Assembly (NCBI GenBank): GCA_030272155.1
Contig: CP126191.1
Span: 8,764,501-8,828,500 of the forward strand
Length of the DNA stretch: 64,000 nucleotides
Direction: 5' to 3'
Origin: Tetradesmus obliquus
Lineage: Eukaryota; Chlorophyta; Chlorophyceae; Sphaeropleales; Scenedesmaceae
Part shown: piece by piece, positions 4,827-52,243 of the stretch
Position numbering within the stretch: position 1 is the stretch's first letter
How the letters are laid out: every line of letters starts with the position of its first letter
Notes under the pieces: model-generated
What the model saw: only the letters and a program-made list of their open reading frames with translations
The model's database searches: none
Told to the model about the DNA's origin: nothing
Translations under genes and position numbers: made by a program

Positions 4827-5657
4827 ATGGGCCTGTTCCAGGTGACCAGTCTTCTCTGCTGCTCATTGCACCGGCCAGGTACTGCTGTTATGCAGCACAT
4901 CCACACCTTTGCTGCACTGCAGGGGGGCAACTTGTTCCAGGACCCCGAGATAATAAATGCCTTCTCCGGTGCTATAGCAGGTGTGGCCGAACACCATGCA
5001 GCTGCCAACCAAGCAGCTGCAGCCTGCATCGGCAGTTGATGCCTTGCATCCCGCACTGCATGCATGCATGGGTTATGCCTAGCAGTTGAGCGCTGGGTGT
5101 CTGCAGTATGTGTGCAGCACTTTATATGTGCTTGCAGGGCTGGACTTACAGCAGCTGCGTGGTCCTCTGAGCATGCCGCAGATGGCTGCACCGGCACCAG
5201 CACTGCAGCAGAACTTTGCTTGTGAATTGCTCTCAGCTGCAATGCTAACCTAGGGCGCCAGGCCTGCGCGTGCAATGGCACAGCAGAATCGTGTGCAAGC
5301 AATGGTACATATGTGCTATTGATAACGCGTGTATGCAGCGGCGCGTCAAACTGCAGCAGCGCGTCAAACTGCAGCAGCGCGTCAAACTGCAGCAGCATCA
5401 AGGGCCACGGTGAATGCACGTGTCTATACTTTTCAGTACTCCAAAGCCTTTACACGAGCTGAGTGACCTACCTCAGCCTCCCGACACGCTTACATTACAC
5501 TCCTATTCCCGTCTATTGTGTGCTGCGTCCGCTGCTGCCGTCAGGCGCGCTCACGGCCACGTTTGTGTGCCCGCTGGATGTGCTCAAGACGCGGCTGCAG
5601 GTGCAGCGCATCGCCAGCAGCCAGCGCGTGGGCATCGCAGGTGCGCAGCAGCAGCAC

Positions 5658-5690
<33 letters not shown>

Positions 5691-7768
5691 CACCAGCACT
5701 AGCAATGGCAGCAGCAGCAGCAGCCAGCGCGGGGGCATCGCAGGTGTGGAGCAGCATCCAGCACCCAGCAGCGGCAGCGGCAGCAGCGCTAGCAGCAGCA
5801 GCAGCAGCGGCAGCGGCAGCGGCAGCAGCAGCAGCAGCACCAGCAGCAGCAGCACCCAGCACCGCAACAACAGCAGCATCATGAGGGGAGGTGTCTCAGC
5901 ACAGTGCACGGCGTCACTCGGCAAGACTATGCAGCGACATGCAGCAACAGATGGGAGGTTTCAGGGAATGTCCAGTGTCGCTCAGCTCAGCACAGTGCAA
6001 TGCAGGCAGCATGGGCAGCTGCAGCCTTGTTGCACATCACTGGCCAGCTGCTGCTGCACACACGGCAGCCTGTGCCGCACAGCAGCAGCAGCAACAACAG
6101 CACGACCTACACAATCACCAGACTGAACACGCCACCTGCTTGCAAGTCCTCTGCTGATGGAATGAACACGCGTGTTGGATGTTGGTGCTGCTGTGCCGCA
6201 GGTGGCTTGGCGGGCATTGTGCGGCAGGAGGGCTTTGGGGGGCTGTACCGCGGTCTGACACCCACCCTCATGGCGCTGCTGCCAAACTGGGCGGTGAGTG
6301 AGCCCGGAGGTGCACTCAGCTGCAGAGCAGCAGCTGAGGCGGCAACAGCAGCAGGGGTGGTAGCAGCAGCTGACGCAGCAAAAGCGCAGGGCGCAGCAAA
6401 AGCACAGGGCGCAGCAGCAGGCATTGCAGATGGTGCTGCAGCTACGGCTTCTGCTGCTGCAAGGCACCTGGCAGCTTTCAGTTGAATTACATAACATGCA
6501 CTTGAAATTGAAATTGAAGGAGGCTGAGTTGCACAAAGTCCATCTGCTTGGACCTTTGGCTTGCGTCGGGTGGTATTGCACAGTTGCCGGCAGGCGCATG
6601 TGCAGCTGCAGCACACCTGGGCGAAGCATTGGTGGTAAATCTGTGGTAGATACCGCAATTATAGCTGCAGCGGGGTAGGCAAAGCAGTTTCAAGAACACA
6701 TGTGGGCTCGTTTGCTGATGGCCCCAGTCGGTGCCAAAGTGTGCCCACAACGTGTCTGCCCCTCCTTGCGCACTGCGCTGCACTTGCAGGTGTACTTCAC
6801 TGTGTATGGCAGGCTGAAGACCACGCTCACCACGCGGCCTGGCGGTGGGTGCTGCTACAGCCAGCAGGGCAGCAGCGGCAATGCGTGCGTCAGTGCACAG
6901 CAGCAGCAGAAAGATGCGCAGCCAGCAGCAGGCAGCAGCACTGCAGCGGCTGCAGCAATTCGCTGACAGCAGTAGGTGACGCGGCGCAACACATGGTCTG
7001 GATGGCGTGTGCATGAATCTTTGGATTGTTATGGCCTGCAGCAGGAAGCATCTGGCAAGTGCCTCGTTTGCAGCTGCTTCAAACCAAACACCACATGTGG
7101 GGAAGGCCTCATTTCTCACCCTGCTGCTGCTGCTGCTGCCGCTGCTGCTGCTGCTGCTGCTGTTGCAGGCCGCACCGTGCCAGCCACGCCAGCCATCCAC
7201 ATGACAGCAGCAGCAGGCGCAGGCGTGGCCACACTCATCGTGACCAACCCGCTGTGGGTCATTAAAACGCGCCTGCAAACCCAACACATGGCCATTGGCT
7301 ACGGCAAGGCAAGCCTGCGGCCCTACAGGGGCACTTTTGATGCGCTGGCGCGCATAACACGCGAGGAGGGGCTGCGGGGGCTATACAGCGGGCTGGCGCC
7401 TAGCATGGCTGGGATCTGTCACGTGGCGATTCAGTTCCCGCTGTATGAGGCCTCTAAGGTACGATGCTGCAATGTTGTAGGCTTGCAGTTATGAGTATGT
7501 GTGTTAAGCTTAACAAGTACGTTGTAAAGGTTGGTATTCAATTTATCCAGGTGAGCTGCGGCACGCGGCAGCATTGCTATTCGCTGAGCGGCTGCAGTGT
7601 GCTGGCTTGTTTAATCCGTATACATTAACGTATCTGTATGTCTGCGGTATGTCTGTTGTGGCTTTGCTGTGGTGAGTGCGACCATCTCCAGCAATGCGCA
7701 GCTGTACTCTGCTTACACAGTGCTGCCTCATACACTCAACTCGCTGCCTGCTGTGGCCACACACCACC

Positions 7769-7812
<44 letters not shown>

Positions 7813-8319
7813 AGCTGAACGCCGCCACGCGGCGCGGCTGCCGCACGGACGAGCTGAGTGCCAGCGAGCTGGTTGTGACCAGCGCCTTCAGCAAGATGGT
7901 TGCCAGCACCATCACCTACCCGCACGAGGTGGTGCGCTCTTACATGCACGTCACAGGTGCGCTGCCCGCGGTGAAGCGGGATATTGTATACTTGCACACA
8001 GCATGTGATCAGGAAGCTTGCATGCAACATGCATGTTCTCTGTCAGCGGCAGCAGTGCGTGCTATTGCTGCTGCACGTCCACAAATGCGCTGGCCGCGGC
8101 AAAGCTGGATCGTATTGTATACTTGCACACAGCAGCGGGGCATGTTATTGCCGAGGTATGATGTAACATGTGCTCACAACGTGTACATGGCTGTGCGTGC
8201 ATTGCGCGTCTGCCCTGCATACGTCGACTGATGTCTGTACAGCAGCGCGGTCAAACACAGGAGCCTTGGCACGCGTTGCTGTAAGCCAAGCGCTGGTTGC
8301 ATCCCTCTCCTCACAGCAC

Positions 8320-8354
<35 letters not shown>

Positions 8355-8669
8355 AGGCAGCGGCCCGTGGAACGGGCTGTCGGAGGCGTGCCGTGTCATT
8401 TTCCGGGAGGACGGCATCCGCGGCTTCTACCGCGGCTGCGGCACAAACCTGCTGCGCACCACGCCCGCGGCAGCGCTCACCTTCACTAGCTTCGAGCTGA
8501 TTGCACGTGCGCTGCGCAAGGTGTCCGGGCCGCAGCAGGCGTCTTCTGAAGAGCTGCCCGACCTGCTGGACGCGCAGCAGCAGGAGCTGCAGCTGCAGCC
8601 GCAGCAAGGGCACCTGCAGGAGCAGCAGCAGCAGCAGCTTCAGCGGCCGGGGTTAGGGTACGGCAGCTC

Positions 8670-8702
<33 letters not shown>

Positions 8703-8847
8703 TGGCCACCAAAGGGTGGCGCATAGCCCGTATGGCAGCCATCAGCAGCAGCAGCAGCAGCAGCACTTAGGTAGTGCTGCACAGCAGATAGCGGAGCTGT
8801 CGCGGCCGCATCATGTGACGGTAGCAGCGCCGGGGAAGAACTTGTGA
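4827..8847 (+). CDS. NDT: Mitochondrial carrier family protein, NAD+ transporter NDT1/NDT2-like
   Basis: Seven exons join in phase: 4827-4980, 5545-5640, 6202-6293, 6790-6844, 7169-7458, 7815-7956, 8357-8847, giving about 439 residues. The three SLC25 repeats are plain: [13 protein letters not shown], then [33 protein letters not shown], then [24 protein letters not shown], then [17 protein letters not shown]. The order and wording match plant NAD+ carriers, including the diagnostic NPLWV (W in the second signature) and GLYSGLAP. The family exchanges NAD+ for ADP/AMP across inner mitochondrial, plastid or peroxisomal membranes; which one is not shown here. An odd feature is a Gln-rich tail of about 100 residues after the last helix, where plant homologues stop soon after. 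The start is uncertain: ATG 4827 reads through in frame, but 4842-4922 could also be a spliced intron. Two TGTAA signals at 9529 and 9544 may end the transcript. Confidence 0.9.
5342..5396. repeat. 18-bp tandem repeat, three copies, in carrier intron 1
   Basis: The unit GCGTCAAACTGCAGCAGC is repeated three times head to tail. Each copy contains CTGCAG, so each also offers a weak acceptor-like site. Confidence 0.85.
7119..7168 (+). repeat. (CTG)n tract abutting acceptor of carrier exon 5
   Basis: An interrupted CTG/CCG triplet run ends in TGTTGCAG directly at the exon-5 acceptor. The same arrangement recurs before exon 6 (7769-7814) and exon 7 (8321-8356) of this gene, and in several other genes of the window. 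Confidence 0.85.
7940..8136 (+). repeat. Echo of carrier exon-6 3' edge in intron 6
   Basis: The junction at 7956/7957 and the first part of the intron (core TGCGCTGCCCGCGG, then ATTGTATACTTGCACACAGC) are repeated about 128 bp downstream, with the copied junction near 8085. In the copy the donor GT has become AT, so it should not splice. Identity is high in the last 25 bp and lower near the junction. Confidence 0.75.
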
Positions 8848-14182: not shown

Positions 14183-14719
14183 GAGCTATAGACAGCCGAT
14201 CGAAGTTTTGAATTTGTTGCCAATCAAACTCACAAGCAACCAGCCTTGCTGGCCAAGCAACAACAAAGGGTGAGCTGCAAGGCGTGAAGTTTGAGTGGGC
14301 GTGCTGTTGCTTTGCACTGCGTGAACAAAATCTGATCGTGCTTTTGAAAACCTCAGAGTCGTATGCAAGCAGCTTGTACAGCGCAGGCAGCGAAGGGGTC
14401 CTGTTGTCCGAGACCACCGCCCTAAGAACCCTTGAGCCCCTCCAGCTCATAACCCTCGTCATTGCATCTTCCCGCTGCAATCGCATCGCTATATTACCAT
14501 TCAGCAGCTACGCAAACACGTGCCGGCAGGGCCCTTCTGAAAAGTGCCGTCAGCCTTTCGGAACAGTCCAACCAGCTGTGGCAAAAGATCACTGCCGCAA
14601 AAGCAGTAACGGCAGCCGTACATTCATCACCTGTGTACCTCAGGGGTTGGTAGATGGTCACTACTTGCTGCTAACAAGGCCTTCAGCTAGTGGTAACCAG
14701 CTAGTGCTGCAGTAGCAGC
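14183..14719. promoter_or_regulatory. Shared upstream region between divergent PAS and PhyH-like genes
   Basis: The two ATGs (14182 minus, 14720 plus) face away from each other, so this 537-bp interval must hold both 5' UTRs and promoters. No TATA box or named element can be assigned with confidence. Confidence 0.5.
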
Positions 14720-16415: not shown

Positions 16416-16446
<31 letters not shown>

Positions 16447-18638
16447 AGAGCTTGATCGTTGCAGGCACTTTACACTTCACACTTCACACACTTCACTTCC
16501 ACACACTTCACTTGCCGCACACACCTGCATTGTCAGTGGGCACACATTCGCCGTGTGTGACGCCGTGCGTGTTGGCTGCTGCTAAAGCTTTGCAAATGCA
16601 GGTTTGCAGACCCGGGCTACTTTGAGGGGGACCCTGAAGATGATGATGCGCCTGATCCGCTCACTGCAGCGCTGCCGGATAAGGCAGCCTACCAGCATAT
16701 CCGCGCACTGCCTTGTACGGCGGGCTCTGCATGCATTTTCACACACAGGTGCGCTGCGCGCTGCAGCAACTGCAGCTGATCGACTTGCAGACGCTGCCAC
16801 AACAACACGCTTGCACCTGTTCCTGCATTTGTACCTGCGGCATGTCTGCCATGATGACACAGCCATCCTCAAAAGCCTCTGCCGCCAGACGGTCCCACCA
16901 ATCTTGTTATACATGTCTTGGCCCGCCGCCCTGCAGGACCATTTCTGGGGCTCCCGCGGCTGCCTTACTGTGCGTCTTCGACTTTCACGTTTGAGTCCTC
17001 TCTCTTATGCTGTCTTCGCGTCCACCCGCAGGACAATCCACTGGGGCTCCCGAAGCCGCCCTACTGTGCGTCTTTGACTTCCATTTTTCTGTCCTCCCTC
17101 TTTTGCTGTCTTCACTTCTGTCAATGGGGCTCCCGGGGCCGCCCTACTGTGCTCTTGCAAATATTTTTGTCTCTGCCCGCCTCATTCTGCTGTTATCGCC
17201 GCCACTGGCAGGACCATCCACTGGGGCTCCCGCGGCCGCCCCGGCTACCCCACACCCCGCATCAGCATCTCATGGGGCTGCGCTGACGATGCATACGAGC
17301 CCGCCTACTTTGCCAGGGACTGCCTGCCCTGCCCGCCTCTGGCGCTGCGGCTGGCGCTGGCTGGGGCGCAGATGATTGTGTACCACGAGCGCTTCCCGGC
17401 GCCGCCAAAGTGAGTATGATGTGATACTGTATGCATGTTGTTGCGGTGTGCCATAGTGGCGGCCAGTTTGTTGTGTACCACGAGCGCTTCCCCGCCCCAC
17501 CAAAGTGAGTAGAATGTGTTGTTATATAGCAGCACGTAGTGTTGCATGTGGCCGCGGTGTGTTGAACCTGCTGCCAGATGATTGCAGACCAAGAGGGCTT
17601 TTCTGCGCCGCCAAGGTGAGGGGGTGCTGCTGCACTGGTCGGGTGGTGTCAGGGTAGTGCATGTTTGCTACGGAGTGAGGTGGCGGGTGGCCTGTTGCGT
17701 TGCACGATGGCGGTCTTCATATGGTGCACCAGCATCAAGTGTGCCGATAGCGGTGTCTGGCTGCCGTGCCGAAGCAAAGTCTTTGCCCTGCGCTGCGCCG
17801 CATGTGCAGGCAGCTGGCGCTGTACTACCAGGCCTTCACAGCGCAAGCAGGCCAGTTTGATGCAGCCTACAGGGAGAAGGTCACAGCTGAGTTCTTGGAC
17901 GCAAGCAAGGAGGCAACAGCAGCAGCAGCAGCAGCAGTGCCAGCAGCAGGAGCTGCCGGTGCAGCAGCAGCCCAGCCAGGCCGAGTTAAGAATGCTGCTG
18001 GCGAGGCTGCGGGCGCGGACTCGACAGCAGCTGCAGCAGCACTGGGAACGGGGTCAAACGCCAAGTCAAAAGCAATCAAGGAGGCACCAGCAGCAGCAAA
18101 GAGTGCTGCTGCCGCAGCTGTAAAGCCAGCTGCAGCTGTAAAGCGTGGGCGCGCCAGCCAGCAGCAGGCTGCTGCTGCAGAGCAGCTGGTAGAGCAGGCG
18201 GGCAAGCCTGGCAAGCAGCAGCCCAAACGGCAGAAGCAGCCGCAACAGCAGCAACAGCAGCAGCAATTGCAGCCGCAGCGGACAACGGGAAAGGGCAAGA
18301 AACTCATGCCAGGAGCAGCAGAAGCAGCAGCAGAGGAGGAGAGTTCTGAGGAGGATGAAGGCGATGGCATTGACTGGGCCCAGGTAGCAGCAGCAGCGCG
18401 GGAGACTGCACGCAAGGCGAAGAAGGCAGCAGCAGCAAAGAAGAAAAAGAAGAAGCGGAAGGGCGCCGGAAGCAGCAGTGACGAGGGCTCAGGGTCTGGG
18501 GATGAAGGCCTAGGGTTTGGGGACGCCGGGGATGACAATGACGATGATGACGGCAATGTCATGGAATTGGCCCTGGATGCAGTGCTCGATGCTCAGTTGG
18601 CAGGGCAGGACTTCCATGATGATTTTGAGGACGACTGA
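14720..18638 (+). CDS. Phytanoyl-CoA dioxygenase (PhyH) family 2-oxoglutarate/Fe(II) oxygenase with charged C-terminal tail
   Basis: Eight exons: 14720-14830, 14995-about 15078, 15204-15326, 15753-15943, 16212-16379, 16602-16748, 17212-17409, 17810-18638; about 616 residues. All joins keep phase; only the exon-2 donor is uncertain. The double-stranded beta-helix core shows AWYVDPSRGDAGFSPHRDRQ, whose H-x-D supplies two iron ligands (about residues 184 and 186), then MYATLWLPLTDAVPENSCLY, and THRTIHWGSRGRPGYPTPR with the distal His (about 278) and the 2-oxoglutarate Arg shortly after. The last roughly 200 residues are Ala/Gln/Lys-rich with a KKKKKKRK run and acidic patches (DDDDGN, DFEDD), suggesting a nuclear or nucleolar location. 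The substrate is unknown; this family hydroxylates lipids and other small molecules. TGTAA at 18710 probably ends the transcript. A 454-bp gap separates it from the next gene. Confidence 0.85.
16925..17260 (+). repeat. Tandem array (about 95-bp units) repeating the acceptor and 5' edge of PhyH exon 7
   Basis: The true exon begins at 17212 with GACCATCCACTGGGGCTCCC after a GGCAG acceptor. Near copies start at 16937 and 17032, each with its own CTGCAG or CCGCAG acceptor, and a more degenerate copy is at about 17121-17149. The spacer (TTTGACTT, CCTCTTTTGCTGTCTTC) is repeated too, so whole units of about 95 bp were duplicated. Confidence 0.85.
17374..17625 (+). repeat. Repeats of the 3' edge and donor of PhyH exon 7
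   Basis: The end of exon 7 (TGTACCACGAGCGCTTCCC ... CCAAA, donor GTGAGT at 17410) is copied 95 bp downstream with an intact GTGAGT donor at 17505. A weaker third copy ends CGCCGCCAAG with GTGAGG near 17616. Use of the second donor would add 95 nt and shift frame. Confidence 0.85.
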
Positions 18639-19091: not shown

Positions 19092-22000
19092 ATGAACAGT
19101 AAGAAAGGCAAGTTCTCTACCACCACCCGGGCGCGCTTGGGAAGGGTAGTGAACGAGTTTTCTTATGGCTACTCAGCGACGGAGGACGGGTTTCTTGTAC
19201 AACTATGGCTTCCGGATGCTGTGGGCGGCGTGCTCACGACAAACGTATGAGTGCTCTGCTGCTGCTCCGAGAGGTTGAGCTGGCACAGAGATCTTGAACA
19301 TAGGGGTCATGGGCGTCACAGACGCTTTTTCTGACTGAGCTACACCCAACTACTCAGCCTGTTCACGGTCAGCAGCGACAGCGGCGGTTGCTGCAGCTGT
19401 GATGGTGGACTGCATGCTGCTGCTGAGTCTGTGCAGCTTCATGATGTGAAAGCTTCACGACTCATGCCACCTCTCAACCATGCCGCTCACCGCTGCTGTG
19501 GCACTAACAACTGCATGCCATATGCTCTTTGCGCAGGGCTCCCCTTTCTCCATTGTAGGCTGCAGCGACTCGCTGGCACTGTACAAGTTTGAGAGCAGCA
19601 AGCACTGCCCAACCACAGATGGCCGCCTCGCAACCTGCCCAATCAGCCGCGTCTTTGCTGACATGCAGCCAGAGCTGCCAGAGCTGCCAGCTGCAACAGG
19701 CTGCAGCAGCGCAAGCCACGCGCAGCAGCAACAGCAGCAGCAGATGCACTTTGACCGCGTGGCAGAGGCACAGCGGGCAGGCATTCACTCTACACTGGTG
19801 CTAGCCATCTATGACTTGCAGGGCAGCAGCAGCAACAGTGGCAACGGCAGCGGCAGCGGCAGCGACACTGACTGCTACCCAGTTGCTGTCTTTGAGCTGG
19901 CGCAGCATGAGCCAGATGTGGATTTCAGGCCTGCAGTCGGCTTGCTGAGCAGGGCCTGCCAGGTGCGTGGCATGCAGCAGATACGGCGCGCTTGCCGCTG
20001 CACATGCGTCAAGTGTGCAGCGCATCATGTGTAATCGCCATCGCTTGGCAACCGCCATGCAACGCGCTTGCGGCAAGTGAGCATGTGCACCTGGTGCTTC
20101 CCATCACCTCAACCCCGCTGCCAAACCTCCAAGCCTCCAGCGTGTCGCTGCGACACCACCACCCCACTCGACCACCCTGCCGCGCGAGCCTTTTGCCCAC
20201 GCCCACCGCCCCGATGTGCAGTAGCTGCATCCACCCCTTGCGTTGTGTTGTGCGCTGCTGGCCCTGTTTCCTGCAGGCTGAGTCCCTGTGGGTGCCCCAG
20301 CTTGAGGCAGCAGAGTCAGTGCAGTCCTGGGAAGGCACCGTGCCCTCACTATGCAGCACAGCACCCAGCAGTGGATGGACCACTGCCAGCAGCAACGCAT
20401 CCTGGGCAGCAGCAGCAGCAGCAGCAGCGCCAGGCTGTACAGCAGCGGCTGTAGTGCCTGCAGGGCGGCAGCATGTGCAGAGCTGGCCAAGTGATGAGCC
20501 ACAGCAGCAGCAGCAGCAACAGGCGTCGATGAACGAGACGGTGCGGCGGTACAGCTGCTTGATTGCAGAAGTGCCTGGCGCTCTGATGCACCTGTTGGGC
20601 CTGCATCACGAGCAGCAGCAGCAGCAACACAGCTCGCAGCAGCAGCAGCAGCAGCAGCAGCAGGTAGTGTTGGACCCGGAGCAGCAGGCGCATGCAGCAG
20701 AGCAGCAGCAGATGCGGCGCCGGCGGCGGCGTCAGTCCTTCATAGTGACGGATTACCTGCAGTTTTATGAGCAGCTGGGGCCGGTGGTCGTTGGCTCACC
20801 AAGCCAGCCCGCAGCAGCAGCATCAGCTGGAGGCAGCAGCAGCAGCAGCAGCAGGAGGCCCTCGGCAAAAGAGATGCTGCCAGCGATTGCGGACGCCAGC
20901 GCTGAGCTGCCAACACCAGGCCTCAGTGCTGAGCCAATGCGGGCCAGCAGCGGCAGCAGCAGCACGAGTGCAGTGCACGCGCCGCAGCAATCTACACTGG
21001 ATGGTGCAGCAGCTGCTGCAGGGTGCGCTGTCTCACATGGCAGCAGTGTGGCTGCTGCGGAAGTCAGCAGCTTGCTGCAGGAGCTGCTCACTTTGCAGCA
21101 CAGCGGGCAAGGCTTGCAGGAGCAGCATGGTGTGGTAGCAGAGCCACACAGCAACAGCAGCAGCAGCGGCAGCATGAGCATGGTGTCGCCTGTGCAGCTG
21201 CCGCCGGGCGTGATGCGGCTGTCTTCTTCTTTCTCTTCTGGTGCGTCAACTCAGTTGGGTATCTGCACTGCAACAAGCACGCCTAACAGCACAGTCGGAG
21301 CCGGTACTACTGCTGGTGCTGCTGCTGCTGGTGCGGTGGACAGCGCCCAGCAGCAGCAGCTCGCGAACTGGCATTCCCAGCAGCTGCAAAGCTGCGAGAC
21401 CCGAGACCGCGGCAGCGGCGGCAGCGGCAGCAGCACCGGCGGCAGTGCTGGCAGCAGCAGCTTTAGCAGCGCTGCCAAGGCAGCAGCCCAGCCAGGTCGC
21501 CTCACCAGTATCTGGCAATCCGAGGGCAGCAGGCAGAGGATAGTGGGACTAGGGCGGGGCCACGCAGCAGCAGCAGCTGCCGCAGCGGCAGCAGCGGCGG
21601 CAGCAGCAGCAGCGGCAGCAGAGTCGCCCAAAGCAGCAGCAGCTGCTGCTGCAGATGCGCTGGCTCCTTGGGCGGACTCGCAGCAGGCGGCGGCGCTGAT
21701 GCGTGCGTGCAATGAGCGGCCGGTGCCCGGCATTCTGTCGGGCACTCTGAGTGAGGCTGAGGCCTGTAGCATCCAGCTGGGGCAGCTGTGTGGGGCAGGC
21801 AGCTTCGGGCGTGTGTACCGGGGCTTGTTTGAGGGCCGCGAGGTGGCCATCAAGGTGGTGCACCACAGCAGCAACACAGCAGCCAAGGTGGGCTGGGTGG
21901 TGGCCGGGCGGCTGCTGCGTGCATGCTGCGGTATGGTTTTTGCGGTTGCGGTTGCGATTGCCGAGGACAGATGGTGCTGCGGGCTGCATCATTCGTGCAC

Positions 22001-23535
22001 GGCTGTTGTTTTGTATTTGAAGCGGCAGGCTGCTGATGGCGCAATTGCCGCAGCAAGCCTGTGCTGCTTGGTGGCACTTTTGGTACGCTGTAGCGCGCTT
22101 GAGCGGTCTATGAAGCCCTCCTGTTGCTGCTGCTGCTGCTGCTGCAGGTTGAGCGCGAGGTGCGCATGATGTTGGCGATGGACCACCCCAACTTGTGCCG
22201 GGCACACCACTACATCACTTGGGGTGCAGCAGGCCAGTCGGAGAGCCTGCATCTGGTGAGGCCCTGCAGCACGCTAAATAGCTGGCATGTGACAGGCAGT
22301 GCGTGGTGCTGCTGACTGTGCTGCTGAATATGATACATATCGACAGCCAGGGTCCGTGTTGTGGTTGCTTGCTTTGCAAGTCGCTGCGCGGTGCCTGCAA
22401 TGCAGTGCGTCCCGCTGAAAACACTGTGTGGACCAGCAGAAGCATGTGCAGGGCTGTGTGTGCAGCTTCTGTGCAAACACCCAGCTGCCGGTATATAATA
22501 GCATTTGACCACTGTTAGCACTGTCAGCATGTCGTGCTGCCTGCAGGGCTCTGCCTGGAGCAATCTCCCTGGGCCTGGCGTGACTCCTGTCATCAGGCAA
22601 TGCAGCTTGCAGGGCAGCAACGACCTATGTGGCAGCGGCAGCAGCTCGGGCAACGGCTGTGCAAAGATTACAGAGACATGGATCCTCTCAGAGTACTGCA
22701 ATGCAGGTGCGCTGCGCACCCTGGAGTGCGGCAGTGGCTACGTTTTGTTACGACAGTGATGGACAGATGCAGCGCCGCGTACTTGCTAGCAGAAGGTAGC
22801 TGCACGTTGAGGATGCAGCTGCTGCACTGTGGTTGTGGCGACTGCTTGTTCATGCGGCCGCGCTTCTGGAGCAGCGATGGTGCTGCTGCTGGCTGCTGCT
22901 GCTGCTGCTGCTGCTGCCGCCGCGATTAACGTGCTTGCCTGTTGCCGTGTTAGGAAGTAAGCACTCTCAGAGTAGAGCAGGAATGCTTGTTACATCTTGT
23001 GTAAAGCAAAGGCATCTGCAAAGTGCAATGCAGGGCCACCACTAAAAGAACAGGATGCCTAGCAATTCGAATGATCAAAGCACCTGCCGTGTGTGTGTGT
23101 GGCTTGCAGGCACATTGCAGGAGTCAGTGCTGGAGCGCAACGAGGGCCTCTTCTTCAGGAATGACACGCCACACATGGTGAGGCGCAGGCTGGCTGATGT
23201 GAAAAGACAGTGTGTGTTTTACGCATGGTACATGCACAACTGCACACCTGCAAGTGATGCCGGGCCAGAAGCGCCCCTGCCCGAAGGCTGCTGGCTGATT
23301 TGTGGCAGCACTTTGTGCCTGATGCAAGGAGCTGTTGCGGTCTGGGGCAGCAAACCTTGCTGTGCGGTTTGGGCCAGCAAACCATGCACAGTGTGCTTTG
23401 CGTCGCCGGCACCTTGGTCAGCAGCCTGCATACCTCCTGTTCAGCGGCCTGCATACCTCATCTGGATTGTCATCAACACCCTGCAAGGACTTGGGGCAGC
23501 ACCACAGCCTGCATCAGCAATGTGTGTGCAAACTG

Positions 23536-23595
<60 letters not shown>

Positions 23596-25412
23596 TGTTG
23601 TTCTTGCACTGCAGGCGATGGTGCTGCATGTGCTGCTGGGCGTTGCCGAGGGCATGGAGTGGCTGCATGCACATGGAATCCTGCATGGCGACCTCAAGGC
23701 TGCCAACTGCCTGCTGTCAGTGCTGCCGGAGCAGCAGCAGCAGCAGCAGCAGCCTGCGGCCCGGGCGGCAGAGCTGCAGCTGTCAGACAGCTCATGCAGT
23801 GATGCTGCTGCTGATGGTGGTGGTGGTGGTGGTGCTGGCGCAGCAAGCTACAAGCTGGTTCCCAAAGTGACCGACTTTGGGCTGTCAAGGTGAGCAGAGC
23901 GATGTGGTTTCAATATGGTTGTCTGCGTAATAGTAGCAGTGCTGTGAGGCGGTGCAGTACGCACGCTTGCAGTGTCCTGCAAGTAGGCGCAGCACCAGGC
24001 AGCACTGGCCAATCTGCGCAGAACATCACTTGTTGCTGCCGTCAGCACGCGCCTCCTGCAGGAGCAGGACTGAGCTGCTGCTGCCGCCGCTGCTGCTGCT
24101 GCTGCCGCTGTTGCTGCTGCCGCTGCTGCTGCTGCTGCTGCTGCCAGGCTGCTGCTGCTGCTGCTGCCAGGCTGCTGGAGGGGCGCTCTCACCTGTCCAC
24201 CTTCACTGTGGGCACGCTGAGCCACCAGGCGCCCGAGCTGATGCGCAGCGGACGGCTGAGCAAGCCGGCAGATGTGTTCAGCTTCGGCGTCATCAGTGAG
24301 TGGCTGCGGCTGTGTCTTATTGCCTTCCGCCTTACCTGATAGCTAATGCAATCTAGTCTGTGCAGACGGGCTGGGTCTGTCATTGAGTGCTGTGCAGCAG
24401 GGAATGAAGCAGTACTCCTGCATTGCGTGCATCAGTGAGTGGCTGTAGCGGCCGCAACACATGCAGTAAACGCGATGCAATGCATGTGCAGCATGCAGTT
24501 GGGATCGTCGCACTTGGGTGGTTTGCAGTAGCCGAGTCAATTAGTATGATTTGATTATGCTGCAGAGATGCGTGTGCACACAGCGCGTGTGCAGGCCCGT
24601 CTGTGGCAGCTGCTGATGCACATTGTTGCTGCTGCTGCTGCTGCTGCCGTGCAGTGTGGGAGGCTGTCAGTACTGCTGTGCCCTGGGCTGGCCAGATGAT
24701 GGGTGTCATCATGCACAGTGTGATGGCCCTAGGCCAGCGGCTAAGCTTCAGGCCTGACGTGCCCCAGGTGAGATACTAACAGTTACTAACAGTTAGTAAC
24801 ATGCATTTTGACGGGCCCTCACACGTGACACACAGTCCAGTGTATGTTTGCATGCTGCATGGTAGTGCCTCAGGCGAGGGGCAGCCAGCGCTTCTGAAAG
24901 CCTGTTAAACGATTCGCTCTGCTGTACACAGCCCAGTGCATGTGTGCATGCTGCATTTTGGTGCCTGCTTTTTGCACCTGGACGGTGCAAAGGTGAGGCT
25001 GGATGATGTGCAGGGCTCATGAATGCGGGAGGTCCACCTCGGTCCATTGCATTGCGCCTGCGTACGGTACACATGGACCTGACATGAGCTGCTAGAGACG
25101 CGCGTCAGTGGATTTTGTTGCGTGTGGGTACGGCGGACATGGCATGACCTTGCATTGACGGAAAGCGCGCCTGCTCTCTCACTTGCTGCTGCTGTGCAGG
25201 CGTACGTGGCGTTAGCTGAGCAGTGCTGGCATCAAGACCCCTCGCTGCGGCCCACGTTCAGTGAGGTCGTGGCGCAGCTGCGGCAGCTGCTGCATTGCGT
25301 GGACCAATTGCAACTGGAGGTGCACAGATCACATGCCAGGGCCTCAGCAGTACGGGCAGCGGCACAGGAAGGGATGCAGCCAGCCAACAGCAGTTGGCAG
25401 GGAGCGCTGTAG
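19092..25412 (+). CDS. GAF-like domain plus TKL-type protein kinase
   Basis: Ten exons in phase: 19092-19244, 19537-19962, 20277-21887, 22148-22255, 22547-22706, 23110-23177, 23615-23889, 24171-24295, 24655-24767, 25200-25412; about 1083 residues. The ATG at 19092 follows an in-frame TGA. Residues about 15-200 resemble a GAF-type sensor (GFLVQLWLPDAVGGVL, GRLATCPISRVFADMQPELP, then CYPVAVFELAQHEPDVDF), as in algal GAF-kinases. A long Gln/Ala/Ser-rich linker follows. The kinase domain (about 693 to the end) has GAGSFGRVYRG, VAIKVV (catalytic Lys), VEREVRMM (alpha-C Glu), HGDLKAANCL, KVTDFGLSR, TVGTLSHQAPELM and ADVFSFGVIMWE. All catalytic residues are present except that HRD is HGD. A Gly/Ser-rich insert sits between alpha-C and the hinge, and a Gln/Ser/Gly insert precedes DFG. 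Substrate and ligand are unknown. Confidence 0.85.
23537..23591 (+). repeat. (CTG)n microsatellite in kinase intron
   Basis: A near-perfect CTG run of about 55 bp lies 22 bp upstream of the exon-7 acceptor at 23614. Confidence 0.9.
24805..24975 (+). repeat. Imperfect duplication in the last kinase intron
   Basis: A block with TTTGCATGCTGCATGGTAGTGCCT is followed about 105 bp later by GTGTGCATGCTGCATTTTGGTGCCTG; both copies are preceded by ACACAG...CCAGTG. It is an intronic duplication with no coding content. Confidence 0.6.
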
Positions 25413-42603: not shown

Positions 42604-45600
42604 TCAGCGCAGTGGCACGACTTGCTCCCATGAAAAGTCCGGGTCATGGTTGCGGCCGAAGTGGCCGTACGCTGCTGTCTTTTGGTAGCGCCTGTTACCG
42701 CCGCGCTGCAGGTCCAGTTGCTGCAAGCACACAGGTGACGACAGCATGCGGAGGCGGCAGGTCAGTGCAAACACAGCATGATGCAGCGTCACTTGGCAGG
42801 TAGCGTGGGTTTGCAGGACATGGCTTTGCTGAGCACACATTTCTGTAGGCGAGTTGTACGCCCTGGCACATACCATTTGACAACAAACACACCAACGTGC
42901 CTGTTGCCGCGCTGCCTCTGCATCATCCCAACTCGCTCCAACTTCTGACACCTTCACAGTAAATCGACTCGCTGCACACAGTGAGCCTACCTGCGCAACG
43001 ATTAAACATTTCGAACCGTCTTCAAACCGTTGTCAAACCCTAAACCCACCTTAATGATGAGCCCCGGCCTGAAGTCAAAGGTGCGCAGCACGGCCGCCTG
43101 TATCTCCTCGTCAGGCACGCTGCCCGTGCGGTACGTGTCCACGTACACGCTCAGCGGCTCAGGCAGCCCGATGCCATACGACACCTGCGGCAGCAGCAGC
43201 AGCAGCAGCAGCGAATGACACCAGGGGTGCAGCAACGCTACACGCTCAGCAGCTCAGGCAGCCCGATGCCATATGACACCTGCGGCGCCAGCAGCAGCGG
43301 CAGCAGCAGCGGCGGCAGCAGCAGCAGCGGATGACACCAGGGGTGCAGCAACGTGATCCAATCCCTATCCTCATCTGCTGTGCATCTGAGTCACACACAC
43401 ATGTTCCGCATGCAAGTCCGATGCAAGTCCGATGCTTCCGGCCTGTGGCGCGCTCACCACGACGCACCGGCACATCCTATCGGCACGCAAACCAGCTGCT
43501 AGCGCACGCACCCATGTCACACGCGCACATCACTGCACCACGGACAGACACGCACTGGACCCATTGCAGCGTGGTGAACACACCATGCACACCTCACAAA
43601 AAGGCACCACAGGCAAACAAACACATTGCCCATTGCGCAACAAGCAAGAAGACAGGCCCAACCTACACTAAGCAGCGCTGCGCAAACAACACACACATTG
43701 CCTGTTTTGCAACATGCAAAGCAGGCCCCACCTGCACCAAGCAGCGCTGCGCCAGTCCTGCAGCCACCACAGACTTGGCAGCTTGGCGGGCGATGTAAGC
43801 TCCAGACCTGTCCACTTTGGTGGGGTCCTTGCCGCTGAATGCACCCCCGCCATGTGCTCCCCAGCCGCCGTATGTGTCCACAATGATCTTGCGGCCTGTG
43901 AGGCCAGCATCACCGCAGGGGCCTCCCACAATGAAGCTTCATGCAGCAGCAGACAAGGCCGATCAAAGGCATAATGAGTTGCAGCAGAAAAGGCCGATCA
44001 GATGCAAGCCACAGGCAGGGGGCGGCAGCCGGTGGTATGAACGCATGAATGAAATCGGAAAGCAGCGCTGCTGGCATCCCCACAGGGGCCGCCCAGGATG
44101 AATCTGATGACATGCATGGAGGCATACAAGGCCAGGGGCAGAGGCAGGCAGAGGCAGACGGATGAGTGCGCAGTGGTTGTTTGTGGGGCCTCCCAGGATG
44201 AAGCTACATGCAGCAGCAGACAGAGATAACACGAAGTGCAAGCCACAGGCAGCGGTAGGCAGCCGGTCATACTTTTGAGTGAACACAATTGAAAAGCGGC
44301 GCTGCGGGCACAGCCACAGGGGCCGCCCAGGATGAAGCTGATGACATTCGGAGAGAGGCACACAAGGCCAGGGGCAGAGGCAGGCCTTCCATGAGCTTGA
44401 GGTGTTGATGTGCTGCATCTCAAACAGGTGCAAGGAGGAGCGGCAAAAGCCGAGCGTGTTGTGCTGCAGCATCAACATGTTTGGTGGTGGCAGCCGCGAC
44501 AGACGAGTGCAGCTTGCCGGCTCACAGGAGGCCCCCGCCGTCATAACAATTGCGACCGCCGTCATAACAGTTGCGGCCACCGTTATAACAGTTGCGATCG
44601 CCTGCTGACAATGCATCCATCAGCGGCAGCCGCAGCGCGCGTACCTGTGGCTAGGGTTCAGGTAAAACTCCGTCTGGTCTGTCAGGAACTGCGCGGGGAT
44701 CACCGGCTGAATGACGTGCTGCATGAGCTCGCGCTGCACCTCAGCGTGGCTAATGTCCGGGGAGTGCTGCGCAGATATGAGCACGGTGTGCACTCGCTGC
44801 GGTACCAGGTGACCCCCATCACGCAGGTACTCCACAGTCACCTGCAGGCGCCACGTGTAAACGTAGAGATCAAACAAGTTTTCTTTGAAAATGTAAAAAT
44901 GTAAGCAAAGGACCTACAGGTGTGGATGCCATGGCTTGCCACTCTGCATGGGTCAGGCTCTCTTTACGGACCCGTGCCAGGGTGATAGATCCATGAAGAA
45001 ACCCAATGCATGCAGGTATGCACGCACAATATCTTGTGCCCGGCGAGCGCACAAACACACGCACACAAAACAGCTGGAAGCTGGCACGCCAACCATTCCG
45101 TGCTTTACATGCAACTCAACACCAACCCCCCATCATCATCCTCTGCCATGCAGACCATACCCCCGCAGCACATACAGCCACGCCTGCAAACCCCACTCCA
45201 CAACCCTGAACCACTCCGCGGCCACACTAACCCTTCCCGCACCACCCTGCTGCACTCAAATCCACCCTGCCATGCAACCCTCAATCCATGGCCGCACCAC
45301 CTCACAAACATACTCTGCCATAAAACCCAAACCCTCGCACCTGCGTCTTGCCATCTGGCCGCGCCCAGGGGCACATGCCCTGCTTGCGCACTTCCGCCAG
45401 CCGCATCGCAAGCTGTGAGGCCAGCTGATGAGTCAGCGGCATCAGCTCAGGCGTCTCATCGCACGCATAGCCAAACATGTGGCCCTGATCGCCTGCGCCG
45501 ATGTCCTCGGGGGCTTTGTGGCCCATGCCGTGCACGCTCTGCAGCGTGCAGTGCAGCGCCGCAGTGTTTTGAGTGTTAGAGAGTTGAGCTTCCTGTGTTG

Positions 45601-46998
45601 GTCTGTCCAGCTCATTCTAATCAGGTAATCCCAGCACCCACATCAAGTGAGTGCAACATAGAATAGTGTGACTGATGTCCTCGGAGGCTTTGTGGCCCAT
45701 GCCATGCACGCTCTGCGGGGTGGAGTGTTAGAGGGTACGCGGTGCAGTGCAGCGCCGCAGTGTTCGAGTGTTAGAGCACTGTGGCGGGTTTCCTCGGGGG
45801 CCTTGTGATCCATAACGTGCACGCTTTGCAGAGGAGCAGGGAAACATGATTTGGAGAGCAGCGAGGCTGTAGCACATTGTTCAAACACACATGTAGCACA
45901 ATGTTCAAATACACATGTAGCACACTGTTCAAACACACATCAACGTGTTGGCAGAACAAAGTAGCTGGCGTGCGCATGCACACGTGCCAGGGCTTGTGAC
46001 GCATGCCCGTGCACGCTCTGCTGGGTGGAGTGTTGAGTGTTTGCAGTGCAATGCAGCGCCGCAGTGTTTATGTGTGCTTGTGTGCGGGAGTGGAAGCCAT
46101 TGGGTGGCAAGCGCAGGCGAAGCCACTAGATCTGCAGCGTCAACCGTACACAGCTGCAACAGGACGCCTCTTACAACACACCATACTCTTGTCCCCGAGC
46201 ACAAGCCTTGGGCAGCGCACACATCATGATCTGGCAGGATGGGCCTGCACTAGTGCTGCAGATTGTGCCACACGCCGCACCTGTGCAATCTCTGGCACCT
46301 GCTGCTGCACCAGCACCTTCACCTCTGCGCTGTCTGCATCAAAGCCCAGGTCATGCGAGGTGTAGCCGATGTCCCTGCAGGCCTGCCGCGCAACGGCTGC
46401 ATGCAAGGGGACACGGGAGGCAGCAGAGGAGGGGGCAAAGCAGGGCCGCAGACACAACAGCGGGTCACTTCAGTGTGCAAGGCATGGTAGCCGATGGCCC
46501 TGCAGGCCTGGCGCGCAACGGCTGGGAGGGAAAGTGTAGAAAGCAGTGGCAGCACAGGTGACAGCAAAGCAGTGATGCAGACAGAGCAGCAGCAGCAGCA
46601 GCTGACGTCAGTGTCCAGAGTGTGGCACGCGTTGTTACATGCGAATTTCGAACGCAGCTCTGATGGCTGGTTGAAGGTGCGCAGAGCAGCAAGCATACCA
46701 CGACATACATTACAAGGCGGGACCCTTAGGTCACAGCTGCGCCTGCACCCCTCATCACACTGACACCACGCAGCACCACATGCAAACGCCGCATTCCACA
46801 CCAAGTCTCATGCGCAGCATGCCGCAGCCGGTACAAACCACGCTGCCGGCAGATACACATTCGTATTCATTTGCTGGCTGTGGGCTGGCATGCATGCAGC
46901 CAAACCGGCTAGATACATCGATTGATGGCTGATACACGCGAGCTGAGCATCCTGTACAACCCGCAGCCCACATGCATAGTCCACGCTGCCGCCGCTGC

Positions 46999-47046
<48 letters not shown>

Positions 47047-47208
47047 AGCTGCTGCAGCTGCTGTGCCGCCCGCCGCCCACCTGCATAGTCAACCTCCGCC
47101 CTGCTGGTGATCTCCCCAAACACAAGCATGAAGTTATCCTTCACGGCAGTCTCGCACGCCACCTTGCTGGAGGGGTCCTGCGCCAGGCAGGCGTCCAGCA
47201 CAGCATCT

Positions 47209-47245
<37 letters not shown>

Positions 47246-47640: not shown

Positions 47641-47851
47641 GAAAGTGTGAGGGCTGCTGGCTACTGCATGTGGGGGCCTGTGGAATGGGAGTTAAACCGC
47701 AGCAAACAAGACTGGCAGGCGTCAATGTTGGCGAAGCTGCTGCTGCCGCTGCGCTTCTGTTGACACGTAGTTGCAGTTTTTTTGAGGGTGATTGGGATGG
47801 GTCAGCTGTGCAACAGCTGCTGCACAGCTCACTAAACGCCTGCTTTACCAT

Positions 47852-48578
47852 ATCCTGCTGTTGCTGAGCGTGTTATGCAGCATCAGCGAGTGAGCTGCAC
47901 GGACAGGGGGCGGCCGGCCTCAGATTCCTTTGTGGATGCTGCTGCAAGACTGTGCAGGCTGGGCAGGGCAGAGCGTACCGTCTTGGCCCAGCACTTGAGT
48001 GTGTCAGACAGGCCAAGAAGAGTGCATTATCTCATAACTCCTGTCGCACATGATGTTGACAGCATGTGTGCACCTTCTCTGCGCACCTTGCGTAAGCTCT
48101 CCTGCTGCTGCCGCTACTGCTGTACTGCAGCAGTGCATGAGGGCTCCCGAGAGGTGCAAGTGCCCGGCTGCCCATACTGCAGGATGCCTTGGAAAGCATG
48201 ATTGCATATGATCGGTATAAACTCAAGAAGCGCATGGGCACAGCTGCAGCAGCATCAGATGGAATCACAGTCAGCACCGGTTACCAGCTGGTAACTATGC
48301 GATTATACTCAACTGTCTCAACATAAAGGCCGTACTGTCGAGGCCATCTGCGGACACCAGTGCAAGTGGACGTTGGTGCCCTGACCGTGGTTTATGCTGG
48401 TTACGAAGGCACTACGTAGTGCGCGCCGAGCTGCATGTCCTGCCAATTCAGTTCACGTTGATTAGTACTCAACTAGGTTATAGTGGTTTCGGGTGTCGCA
48501 GGGCAATTGGCTCGAGTTTCTGTTTGTTTGCCTCTGTTGACACAGCCTGAGGCACAGCTGTGCATCCTCAACTGTATT
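47852..48578. promoter_or_regulatory. Divergent upstream region of SAMS and sirtuin genes
   Basis: The two genes are transcribed away from each other across this interval, which must hold both promoters and any unresolved SAMS first exon. No specific element is assigned. Confidence 0.4.
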
Positions 48579-49710
48579 ATGGAGATGGCCGCTAAGCTGC
48601 TGGCGTCTCGCGGAGACATGGTCCTGGCTTCTGCAGCCGCTTGCAAGGGCCAGCTCAGGCGCACACTGACCTCATCAGTGCAGTTCAGCAGCACCACAAG
48701 GAGGGGTGTGGGGCGCAGCATGCCTGCATGCTGCAGCAAGCTCAGCAGCAGCGGCAGCAGCAGCAGCTCTGTCAGCACAACATCAAGCCATGGGCACCAT
48801 GCAGCAGCTGCAGGGCGTCCTGCAGGCTACTTCACAGCTGCACCAACCACCAACATTGTTGCGCGAGCTGGCAGCAACAGCAGCAGCACCACTAGCAGCA
48901 CAGCCACCACCAGCAGCAGCAGCAGCAGCAGCGCAGCGCCTTCAGGTGCCAGCTACACCCACTCAGGACTGCAGCAGGAGCGCATCAATGCTGATGGCAG
49001 CTTGTCCATGGCGTACACACGGTACAGACAGCAGCAGCAGCAGCAGCAGGTGCTGCAGTCTGCCAACACTCACAGCAGCTCAGCAGCAAGCCGCCAGCAA
49101 GCCAGCAGCAGCAGCAGCAGCAGCAGCAGCTCAGCACAGCAGCAAGCTCCTCGCCCACCAGGGCTGCCTGCAGCAGCGCCAGCAGCAGTGCCGGCCAGCA
49201 GGCAGCAGTTAGACCAGTTGGCAGACCTCATTCAGAGCAGTAGACGAGTGGTGGTCATCACTGGCGCTGGCTGCAGCACTGAAAGCAACATCCCAGACTA
49301 CAGGGGACCCGGGGGAGCTTACACCACAGGTGTGTGTGCATGCTGCAACAGCACAGTCAGCATGCGGCAGCACAGCCCCTGTGGAGTTGCGAGTCTCGAC
49401 TGCGCGGCAGCAGTGCATGTATGTATGTGCGCTGTGGCTGGTATGCACTGTTAAGGCACAGCTCTGGTACAACTACCGTGGCATGCATCTGCAAGCTGAC
49501 CTTGGGCATTAGTCCTTGTTGTATGTGACACACTGTGCAAGCTGCATCCAACAGACGCATGAGCAGCTACCATGCAACAGTTGCTTGCTTTATGCATGGC
49601 CTGGCTGTAGCAAATCAATGCATGCCGCTATGGTTTTGTGGTGTGCAGGGTTCACGCCCATGACGCACCAGCAGTTCATGACAAAGCCTGAGAGCAGGTC
49701 CAGGTGCGTG

Positions 49711-49745
<35 letters not shown>

Positions 49746-49780
49746 TCGTGGCAAAGCCTGAGAACAGGTCCAAGTGCGTG

Positions 49781-49818
<38 letters not shown>

Positions 49819-49853
49819 TCATGGCAAAGCCTGAGAACAGGTCCAGGTGCGTG

Positions 49854-49894
<41 letters not shown>

Positions 49895-50877
49895 TCATGT
49901 TGTTCATTGTTGGACAAAGCACAACAGCCTCTGCAGGCGCAGTCACCCACAGTACATGCAGCGTGCCAGCTGCATCAGCAGCAGGCAAGTGCTGTTTATT
50001 AGAAAGCTTGCCCAGCGCAAGAGCACCAGCGTAAGATGCGCAGCGCCTGTGCCAGCGCTGCAAGCCACGCCCATGCATCGTGCTGTATTCTCCTGCATGG
50101 AGCATCATCATCAACACCACCTGTCCCCTTCACGACTCGCCATACACAATCGTACATCCATCGTCGCAATCATACGTCCATCGCTGGCCGCTTATCTGCT
50201 TGCCGCCGCAGGTACTGGGCGCGCTCGTTTGCAGGCTGGCACGAGTTTGCATTCGTGCAACCAAATGCAGCGCATGAGGCAATTGCGCGGCTGCAGGGCA
50301 GGGGCTGGTTGGATCTAGTCATCACGCAAAATGTGGACCGGCTGCACCATAAGGGCGGCAGCGGCCGGGTGCTGGAGCTGCATGGAACCACACACAGGTG
50401 CGCAGATGCGGCGGGCTGTGGAGTGTTGCTGGGATTTGGAAATGAGAGAGGATAGTTACATGTGGGTCCTGGCACCATCTCAGATGGTATGAGCTGCATG
50501 GAACCACACACAGGTGCGCAGATGCCGCGGGCTGTGGAGTGTTGCTGGGCTTTGAAAGTGTTGTGCTGTGGGCAGCTGGTTGTTGGGGTGTTCATCGGCA
50601 GGTGGCAGGTGGCCGGTGAAGCTGCGTGTGGTCTACATGAATGAAGGGTGTGGGTGGTGTGGGTGTGTGAGGCAGCAGGTGTGCATTCCTGTAGTGCACG
50701 CACGGGTGCGGTAGCTGCACGCTGCAGCAGCAGCATGCGCACTCACCTATGCGCCGCCGCCTCACTCCAGCTCTGCCAGCTGTGTTTAGTGCATACTCTT
50801 TAACATGCGCTCGCAAAGTGTCTGTTTCCAGCGTGCTTTACCCCACTGTGTGTGCTTGCTGGCTGTACACCGGCCCT

Positions 50878-50920
<43 letters not shown>

Positions 50921-52243
50921 AGGGTGGTGTGCATGGACTGCGGCCACAGCAGCTGCAGGCATGAGGTGCAGCAGCGCCTCGCAGACCTCAACCCTCACAT
51001 GGCAGCAGCAGTGCGCCACGCCAGCTCAGCAGCAGCAGCAGCAGCAGCAGCAGGTGGCGGCATCAGCAACAGGGGTGCGTATGAGCGTGCGCTGCGGGTG
51101 GGCACTGCAGCAGATGCACGCAAGGTGGCTGCGGGAGCCGATGCAGAGCAGGTGAGACATGGCGGCTAGCGGCCTGGCTTGTGGCCTGTTGTTGATTTCG
51201 ATATTGTATCAGCTGCATGCAAGCAGGCTATTGAAGCATCCAAGAATTCTACAATCAAAGTGTTTTGTACTGCCAGCCCTTGCTGCGTATTGAACCACCA
51301 GCCTCTTGCTGCGTTTCGCACTGCCAGACCTTGCTGCGTTTCGCACCGCCAGCCCTTGATGCATTTTGTCGACCATTTCATCACGCACTGCCTGTGTGCA
51401 GGTGCCTGTGGTGCGGCCTGATGGGGACACTGAGCTGCGTGTTCAACTGCCAGCCCTTACTGTGTTTTTCAAGCGTCTCATCGCAAATCTCATGTGTGCA
51501 GGTGCCTGTGGTGCGTCCTGATGGCGATATCGAGCTGGGCGATGCGGGGCGCTACTTCAGGACGGCTGCCTGCGCCGCATGCGGCGGGCAGGTGCTGAAG
51601 CCTGACGTGGTTTTTTTGGGGGACTCTGTGCCCAAGGACCGCGTTGAGAGGTGCGGGGACCTTTCGTTTTCAACCAAGTTTTCTGTTTCGTGTGTATATG
51701 TGAAATATGTGAAAGCTGTTGTATTGTTGTACGCTTGTTGGGGACAGCTGGCGTTTCAGGTCTGAAACGGTGGCTGGGCCTGGGGCTGCATTGATTGAGC
51801 AGGGAGCTGAGGACCCAGTTCCTTTTGCGCTGGCAGGCGCAGCGCCACAGCTTCTGTGCTCATAGATTTGTTGCTGCATCACCAGCACTGCTGCGCGCCC
51901 AGCATCGTCGCCGTCCGCCCGCCTGCATCGCTGCTGCTGCTACTGCTACTCACGCCTTGCGCGCTGATGCTGCTCTTGGTCATCTCTATGTGCTGCGCTG
52001 TGCAGCGCGCTATCAGCGGTGCAGTCCAGTGACCTGCTGCTTGTTGTCGGCTCCTCCTTGATGGTGTGGAGCGCCTTCCGGCTGGTCAAAGCAGCAAAGG
52101 CGGCGGGCGCAGCGCTGGCGCTTGTCAACGTGGGACCCACGCGTGCAGATGACTTGGCTGATGTGAAGGTGGAGGCGCTAGCTGGTGAGGTGTGCATGCA
52201 GCTTGCCATGCACCCGAGCCTGCTGGTGCCTAGAGTGGCATGA
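48579..52243 (+). CDS. SIRT4-like class II sirtuin, NAD+-dependent protein deacylase, probably mitochondrial
   Basis: Six exons in phase: 48579-49329, 49649-49703, 50212-50397, 50923-51151, 51502-51650, 52006-52243; 535 residues. The N-terminus ([20 protein letters not shown], then [18 protein letters not shown]) looks like a mitochondrial presequence, followed by about 150 residues of Ser/Gln/Ala-rich spacer. The core follows SIRT4 order: [63 protein letters not shown] (catalytic His), CMDCG and CAACGG (zinc Cys pairs), [32 protein letters not shown] and [14 protein letters not shown]. An Ala/Ser-rich insert sits between the Cys pairs. Members remove acyl groups or ADP-ribosylate using NAD+. 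TGTAA at 52778 is a candidate poly(A) signal. Three of its introns carry copies of exon edges. Confidence 0.9.
49671..49893 (+). repeat. Three-copy repeat of sirtuin exon-2 3' edge and donor
   Basis: The end of exon 2 (CAGTTCATGACAAAGCCTGA ... GGTCCAG, donor GTGCGTGCC at 49704) is followed by two near-identical copies with donors at 49774 and 49847, spacing 70 and 73 bp, each trailing a (CAG)n run. Confidence 0.9.
50375..50545 (+). repeat. Echo of sirtuin exon-3 3' edge and donor
   Basis: GAGCTGCATGGAACCACACA plus CAG and the GTGCGCAGATG donor at 50398 recur 116 bp downstream (donor copy at 50514). The copy also includes following intron sequence (GGGCTGTGGAGTGTTGCTGG). Confidence 0.9.
50881..50922 (+). 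repeat. (CTG)n tract abutting sirtuin exon-4 acceptor
   Basis: About 13 CTG triplets run directly into the CAG acceptor of the exon starting at 50923. Confidence 0.9.
51268..51372 (+). repeat. About 26-bp tandem repeat in sirtuin intron 4
   Basis: The motif GCCAGCCCTTGCTGCGTTTC recurs about four times, with a further relic near 51450. It sits next to the exon-5 echo. Confidence 0.75.
51392..51432 (+). repeat. Echo of sirtuin exon-5 5' edge
   Basis: TGTGTGCAG plus GTGCCTGTGGTGCGGCCTGA starts at 51402, exactly 100 bp before the true exon at 51502 (GTGCCTGTGGTGCGTCCTGA). About 35 bp match, with an intact acceptor. Confidence 0.9.

Follow-up and report, generated by a model that had tools for sequence, protein, structure and literature searches.

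Intron lengthening is less documented than intron gain or loss. Among the described routes of gain is tandem genomic duplication under the AGGT model, as outlined in PMC3443670. Small tandem duplications are also known to result from the fill-in of DNA breaks by CST and Pol alpha-primase, followed by end joining (as summarized in PMC8355091). Direct repeats near intron borders, 4-30 bp long (mean 11.4) and detected by comparing both borders, have been read as insertion marks (in the relevant text of PMC11782384), and introners are associated with mass generation of intron sequence (in the part of PMC9860276 that concerns them). Here we describe pieces of exon edges that recur as copies, termed echoes, inside the adjoining introns of the green alga Tetradesmus obliquus. 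They were analysed in a stretch of 64,000 nucleotides on contig CP126191.1 (assembly GCA_030272155.1, positions 8,764,501 to 8,828,500 of the forward strand), called the window below, and in a sample drawn from the whole assembly.

The echoes have something in common with each of these systems. As in the AGGT model, a local direct duplication includes splice-site sequence (PMC3443670, as far as its outline goes), but in the alga existing introns lengthen, and the spacing between copies (the offset) convincingly equalled the intron length in none of 260 introns. The short direct copies recall those that arise through break fill-in by CST and Pol alpha-primase, for which the abstract of that report (PMC8355091) mentions no preference for exons; in the alga one edge is copied repeatedly, and a spacer is often present. 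The direct repeats described at intron borders also lie at splice borders (PMC11782384, relevant text), but the alga's copies measure tens of bases and run from one edge into the same intron. Like introners (PMC9860276), the echoes involve mass generation of intron sequence, but the spacers of three of the 90 copy-spacer-copy clusters, tested in a genome search that skips very common words, were each single-copy, and no element family was seen. Among the matches listed from the open-licence PMC literature, no title dealt with exon-edge copies in algal introns.

Exon-edge copies in the genome sample

Introns matched their own flanking exon edges far in excess of chance: in 264 kb, 38 of 368 edges did so, compared with 1 of 1840 when the introns were permuted (Fisher p 1.7e-29). 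The test used the 184 of 258 predicted introns that were at least 100 bp long and had exons of at least 45 bp on both sides, with a main cut-off of score ≥32 and a stricter one of score ≥50. At the main cut-off, 33/184 introns carried an echo. None of 187 exon-interior segments matched the adjoining intron in the same test, while intron-internal segments matched in 20/336 cases at score 32 and in 9/336 at score 50, the latter to be compared with 29/368 exon edges. Edges rank higher, by a margin that is weighed below; some of the intron-internal matches, a share left uncounted, may be echo-to-echo.

The sample consisted of the window and 20 stretches of 10 kb, four from contig 1, on which the window lies, and one from each of the other sixteen contigs of the 104.66-Mb, 17-contig assembly. 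The G+C content of the window is 56.8%. Gene models came from our own Viterbi gene finder, which works ab initio, was self-trained on the sampled sequences and used no RNA. Two earlier self-trained runs were discarded because spurious tiny exons had crept in; all results come from the third, which gave 258 introns, their median length being 291 bp (260 introns in some counts, owing to a lower gene-length cut). The Pfam families PhyH, Sir2 and mitochondrial carrier were recovered, and so were models of SAM synthetase and glutamate-cysteine ligase (GCL), by comparison with solved enzymes. Errors of the gene finder included the donor of the carrier, echoes called as exons in SAM synthetase and GCL, and ∼17 missed GCL residues.

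Local pairs of score ≥40 were collected with a self-written diagonal scanner instead of BLAST self-hits, which undercount small offsets. The 264 kb contained 343 raw pairs, and each of two third-order Markov copies contained none. At least one pair was present in 18 of 21 loci, three of which had just one short-period pair. The echo observation made in the window is right, and it is more general than earlier claimed, since echoes were seen across the genome sample.

The first-pass annotation had proposed two outcomes of duplication across a junction, intron growth and intron birth, and these fared differently. Growth is supported by the edge test, by the direct orientation of the copies and by intron length, the median being 422 bp in 38 introns with echoes and 268 bp in 210 without (p 1e-5). 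Birth, in which an exon piece containing AG|GT is duplicated in tandem to give a new intron as long as the offset, was not borne out. This route is documented elsewhere (in the outline of PMC3443670), AG|GT occurs in each copy at window position 50397 and in an array at locus L019, and the offset equalled intron length in 4 of 260 introns, as against 2 of 1987 random pairings. Each of the four cases is doubtful: one involves a false exon (43184-43279 of the window), two lie in one short L019 array, and one depends on a 4-base predicted exon in an echo array at L013. The median offset of 128 is also far from the 422-bp median of echo-bearing introns, and we regard birth as very unlikely. The place most resembling it is L019:5816-6157, an array of 37/79-bp units, each with CTCTTCAG|GTGAGT.

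Anatomy and location of the duplications

All 46 same-intron matches were direct and none was inverted (384 tests), with a median offset of 128. The first-pass annotation had described copies 70-175 bp apart, with a spacing near 95-100 bp in five cases. In the sample, 110 of 248 merged pairs lay at 70-170 bp, and the fullest 10-bp bin was 110-119 (24/248) rather than 95-100. The range of offsets is broad (77-273 bp between the 5 and 95% points); 22/248 pairs had offsets <70 bp, and the rest formed a tail that includes multiples within arrays. Offsets of 40-69 bp were scarce (6/248, compared with 16 below 40), and this also held with the diagonal scanner. Direct, local and spacer-tolerant copies are expected of the repair of breaks with staggered ends, and such copies were found here.

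By ungapped limits, the exon part of the copied piece has a median length of 39 bp and the intron part one of 10 bp; gapped extension brings the intron side to a median of 69 (29 echoes, core identity ≥90%). The intron side of the unit was recognisable in 29/46 echoes, and a second test, with p≤0.02 as the limit, linked spacer and expected tandem partner in 29/46. Intron sides exceeded the null in 9/26 single echoes and in 20/41 pairs inside arrays, and some arrays showed homology over the full unit. Among 28 echoes with an exon part at least 90% identical, the intron side was unrecognisable in 10, an upper bound because indels hide homology, as at the SAM synthetase edge 45538, where an indel masks clear intron-side homology. 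Both whole-unit duplication and copy-spacer-copy seem to have occurred among the founding events, because intron-side or spacer homology is present in only part of the echoes. Copies ended no more than 9 bases inside the intron in 21/45 cases, compared with 27% on average and at most 56% for shifted placements, which is only suggestive of a sharp ending at splice sites. When a CAG-rich piece from the GCL locus was searched against the genome, the long list of hits resembled repeat matches and was not used.

The copy-spacer-copy anatomy would also suit introner-like elements whose insertion leaves long target-site duplications. The spacers tested, from three of the 90 clusters, matched only their own places in the search described above, and usual target duplications are shorter than segments of tens of bases; such insertion is highly improbable.

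Duplications formed 104 clusters: an exon edge was touched by 58, both exon and intron by 7 and exon alone by 9; a further 16 lay in introns only and 14 in intergenic DNA. Neither these counts nor those of merged pairs include locus L021, which holds a 274-bp satellite, and the intron-only class consists in part of missed exons or edges (L017 790-1485; window 7982). Fresh clusters (identity ≥93%, copy ≥25 bp, offset 65-450) touched a predicted exon in 35/37 cases (29 edge, 3 exon, 3 exon and intron), leaving one in an intron and one intergenic; the lone intronic one is actually a missed exon edge of the L017 kinase. When the smallest offset was ≥65, 70/88 clusters touched exons, whereas only 4/16 short-period clusters (smallest offset <65) did so, 12/16 being wholly intronic or intergenic. 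Exon contact differed between fresh and short-period clusters at Fisher p 5e-7. A predicted splice site lay inside 45/90 copy-spacer-copy clusters; in 1000 shifts of up to 80 bp the mean was 27 and the maximum 40. With moderate confidence, since the basis is our own gene models and a small sample, fresh copies are nearly absent away from exons.

These locations bear on the simplest alternative, neutral tandem duplication that occurs everywhere without preference for exons, with copies inside exons purged, copies inside introns decaying faster and those at junctions staying visible because one of the two is under constraint. It accords with the exclusively direct orientation, with the full-unit arrays in L004, L010, L015 and L019, and with the spacer-partner and intron-side homologies, each in 29/46 echoes. 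A plain minisatellite would be expected to lie independently of coding sequence, yet fresh copies, which allow little unequal decay, are concentrated at predicted exons (the 35/37 clusters above), although unmasked intron and intergenic DNA (89 and 65 kb, together 154 kb) exceeds exon (82 kb). Simulated intron sides were recovered in 99.6% of cases at 15% divergence and in 98.7% at 25%, and nonetheless the intron side was missing in the 10/28 echoes. Because of that fraction, itself an upper bound, plain tandem duplication with even neutral decay seems insufficient, and we consider neutral duplication rather unlikely, though its chance is appreciable.

Echoes in four genes of the window

All five coordinate pairs singled out by the first-pass annotation (17032/16937, 17505/17410, 43279/43184, 44203/44103 and 51502/51402) proved real on direct reading. 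Self-comparison matched four of them, with offsets of 95, 95, 95 and 101; positions 44203 and 44103 each echo the acceptor of SAM synthetase at 43936 (offsets 267 and 167). Echoes are present in each of the four genes named, encoding a mitochondrial carrier, a PhyH protein, SAM synthetase and a sirtuin, and where at least nine affected edges had been reported we found at least ten.

In the PhyH gene (plus strand), both ends of the exon at 17212..17409, identified by the gene model and a PhyH family match, are echoed. The acceptor edge recurs at 16937..16980 (offset 275; echo ladder) and at 17032..17075 (offset 180; alignment and echo ladder), in both cases with the acceptor CAG retained, and at 17124..17160 without an acceptor (self-comparison and echo ladder). 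The donor edge recurs, with its donor retained, at 17471..17518 (offset 95) and 17575..17620 (offset 206), both seen by self-comparison and in the echo ladder.

Echoes of SAM synthetase lie on the minus strand. The acceptor edge at 43184, across which the protein is continuous, has an echo at 43240..43284 (offset 95, self-comparison), and the donor edge 43731/43732 one at 43653..43683 (offset 69). Acceptor edge 43936 is echoed at 44185..44222 (offset 267, self-comparison), with the second echo edge at 44103 (offset 167). Acceptor edge 45538 recurs at 45674..45713 (offset 174, self-comparison), with a further decayed echo at 45791-45825, and acceptor edge 46374 at 46487..46524 (offset 125).

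In the sirtuin gene (plus strand; SIR2 family match), an exon end at 49665..49890 forms an array of three units of 70-73 bp with donor GTGCGT, detected by Tandem Repeats Finder (TRF), and the local exon limits are uncertain. An echo of donor edge 50397 with the donor retained lies at 50491..50560 (offset 116), and one of acceptor edge 51501/51502 with the acceptor retained at 51333..51437 (offset 100-101, self-comparison). The carrier echo, on the plus strand, is real but consists mostly of intronic sequence, and its donor is broken. Self-comparison placed the true donor junction CACAG|gtgcgc at 7956|7957, with the intron start, within 7945..8003, and its echo, which has lost the donor GT, at 8072..8134 (offset 127-128). 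The carrier protein, from a query in part hand-filled, matched the Mito_carr family.

Several side observations concern other parts of the sample. The GCL gene (L010:751-5589) has an exon-edge echo in five introns. Short-period repeats, in large part CAG/CTG, make up about 10% of the window. Long satellites occur at L021:1-3958 (274-bp period) and L009:1-1135 (191-bp period), and neither was seen to overlap a predicted exon.

Fate of the copies and growth of introns

Copies range in identity from ∼75 to 100% and carry separate mutations, in line with the several stages of decay proposed in the first-pass annotation. These mutations, together with the spread of local pairs over 18/21 loci (three with a single short-period pair), leave an assembly artefact with a practically negligible chance. 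At edges with several echoes, echo-specific changes were distributed over codon positions as [39,37,54], while changes specific to the exon relative to all its echoes were [1,0,14]; indels occurred in 22/81 copies. Because of these distributions and indels, we conclude that the echo drifts and the exon is constrained. A splice GT or AG was retained in 30/33 scorable echoes, an alignment count from a search that favours retaining copies.

If the copies were alternative or mutually exclusive exons, both would be used in mRNA and conserved. The exon part was more alike than the intron part in 27/29 echo pairs, as this would predict, though with a bias, the copies having been found via the exon part, and third positions are favoured among single-echo differences. 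A duplicated alternative exon should show coding constraint in both copies, which is not what the nearly even echo-specific changes and the indels show; moreover, the copies cover only part of an exon, and some contain stops or have lost a splice site. At the echo-bearing junctions, the solved relatives of GCL and SAM synthetase carry one copy, a comparison made after removal of the echo-made gene-finder exons and therefore informative on what the protein requires, not on what the alga's mRNA contains. We regard alternative exons as very improbable. Exon-edge copying probably lengthens introns with the protein unchanged.

Among 19 families that have at least two echoes, a change was confined to one echo at 117 sites and common to a subset at 7, so echoes are mostly not derived from one another; L010 3767-4614, with echoes 98% alike, is an exception. 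A further 17 sites, common to all echoes as against the exon and distributed as [3,1,13], are probably changes of the exon because 13 fall at third positions. The nearest echo was closer to the exon in 9 families and farther in 9, and no age gradient with distance from the exon was found in the 19 families. This history agrees with an exon that is copied repeatedly or that refreshes its echoes. Arrays come and go: a kinase at L017:790-1485 has five acceptor echoes ∼119 bp apart, and a paralogous kinase in the window (19522-25412) has no duplication cluster at the corresponding exon.

We favour, as somewhat probable, the view that introns grow recurrently through local direct duplication spanning exon edges, the exon repeatedly supplying the copied sequence. 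A segment of some tens of bases to ∼100 across the junction would be copied to a place typically 70-170 bp inside the intron. The copy adjoining the exon body would remain the splice junction, leaving the protein unchanged, and the other would turn into intron sequence and decay; repetition would make introns longer. The founding event may be a local duplication at a DNA break, with fill-in and joining of staggered ends that in some cases would leave the copies separated by unrelated sequence. In later copying or refreshment the exon may again serve as template. The proposal covers the copying itself, not the strong preference for edges over intron and intergenic DNA.

Several observations weigh against this proposal. 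The gap between edges and intron-internal segments is modest at score 32 (odds ratio 1.8, p 0.04) and still modest at score 50 (odds ratio 3.1, p 0.002). The constrained exon copy decays more slowly, which inflates edge counts, and the longer an intron is, the more places it has for a match. Direct matches of edges also occurred in neighbouring introns (16/630) and in other introns of the gene (7/1875), at six loci where arrays are present or the models doubtful. Among single-echo differences there is a leaning to third positions [37,20,79]. The refreshment step has no positive support from conversion tests: in the four-gamete test on six families with few informative sites, incompatible sites numbered 3 against 2.5 simulated, and the mosaic test was weak (3/48 pairs at p≤0.05, combined p 0.037). 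Finally, the gene models are ab initio and made without RNA, and some edges are wrong.

A bolder version, which we put forward tentatively and as less likely than not, has exon edges as master templates, with an exon-anchored process founding and refreshing copies in the flanking introns and serving as a main source of new intron sequence in the lineage. It fits because the copies are star-like, with few changes shared among echoes, and strictly direct, lack an age gradient and are rarely fresh outside exons. Coding-region ends that include the stop codon are also echoed, at L010:5431-5589, L018:8670-9174 and L020:1987-2327 downstream of the stop and at L017:7925-8152 upstream, with homology ending within ∼12 bases past the stop; the echo habit is therefore not confined to splice sites. 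The master-template version would take in such copying past stop codons, as in the three cases seen.

The results support intron growth at exon edges rather than intron birth. With a mean of 462 bp, introns of T. obliquus are the longest among five green algae tabulated in PMC5966456, the others having means of 230-302. Echoes seed decoy splice sites. If the exon preference survives proper annotation, it would mean that duplication is biased towards coding edges, and we know of no mechanism for such a bias. About one intron in six (33/184) carries a recognisable piece of its own exon, which makes the process datable, countable and testable.

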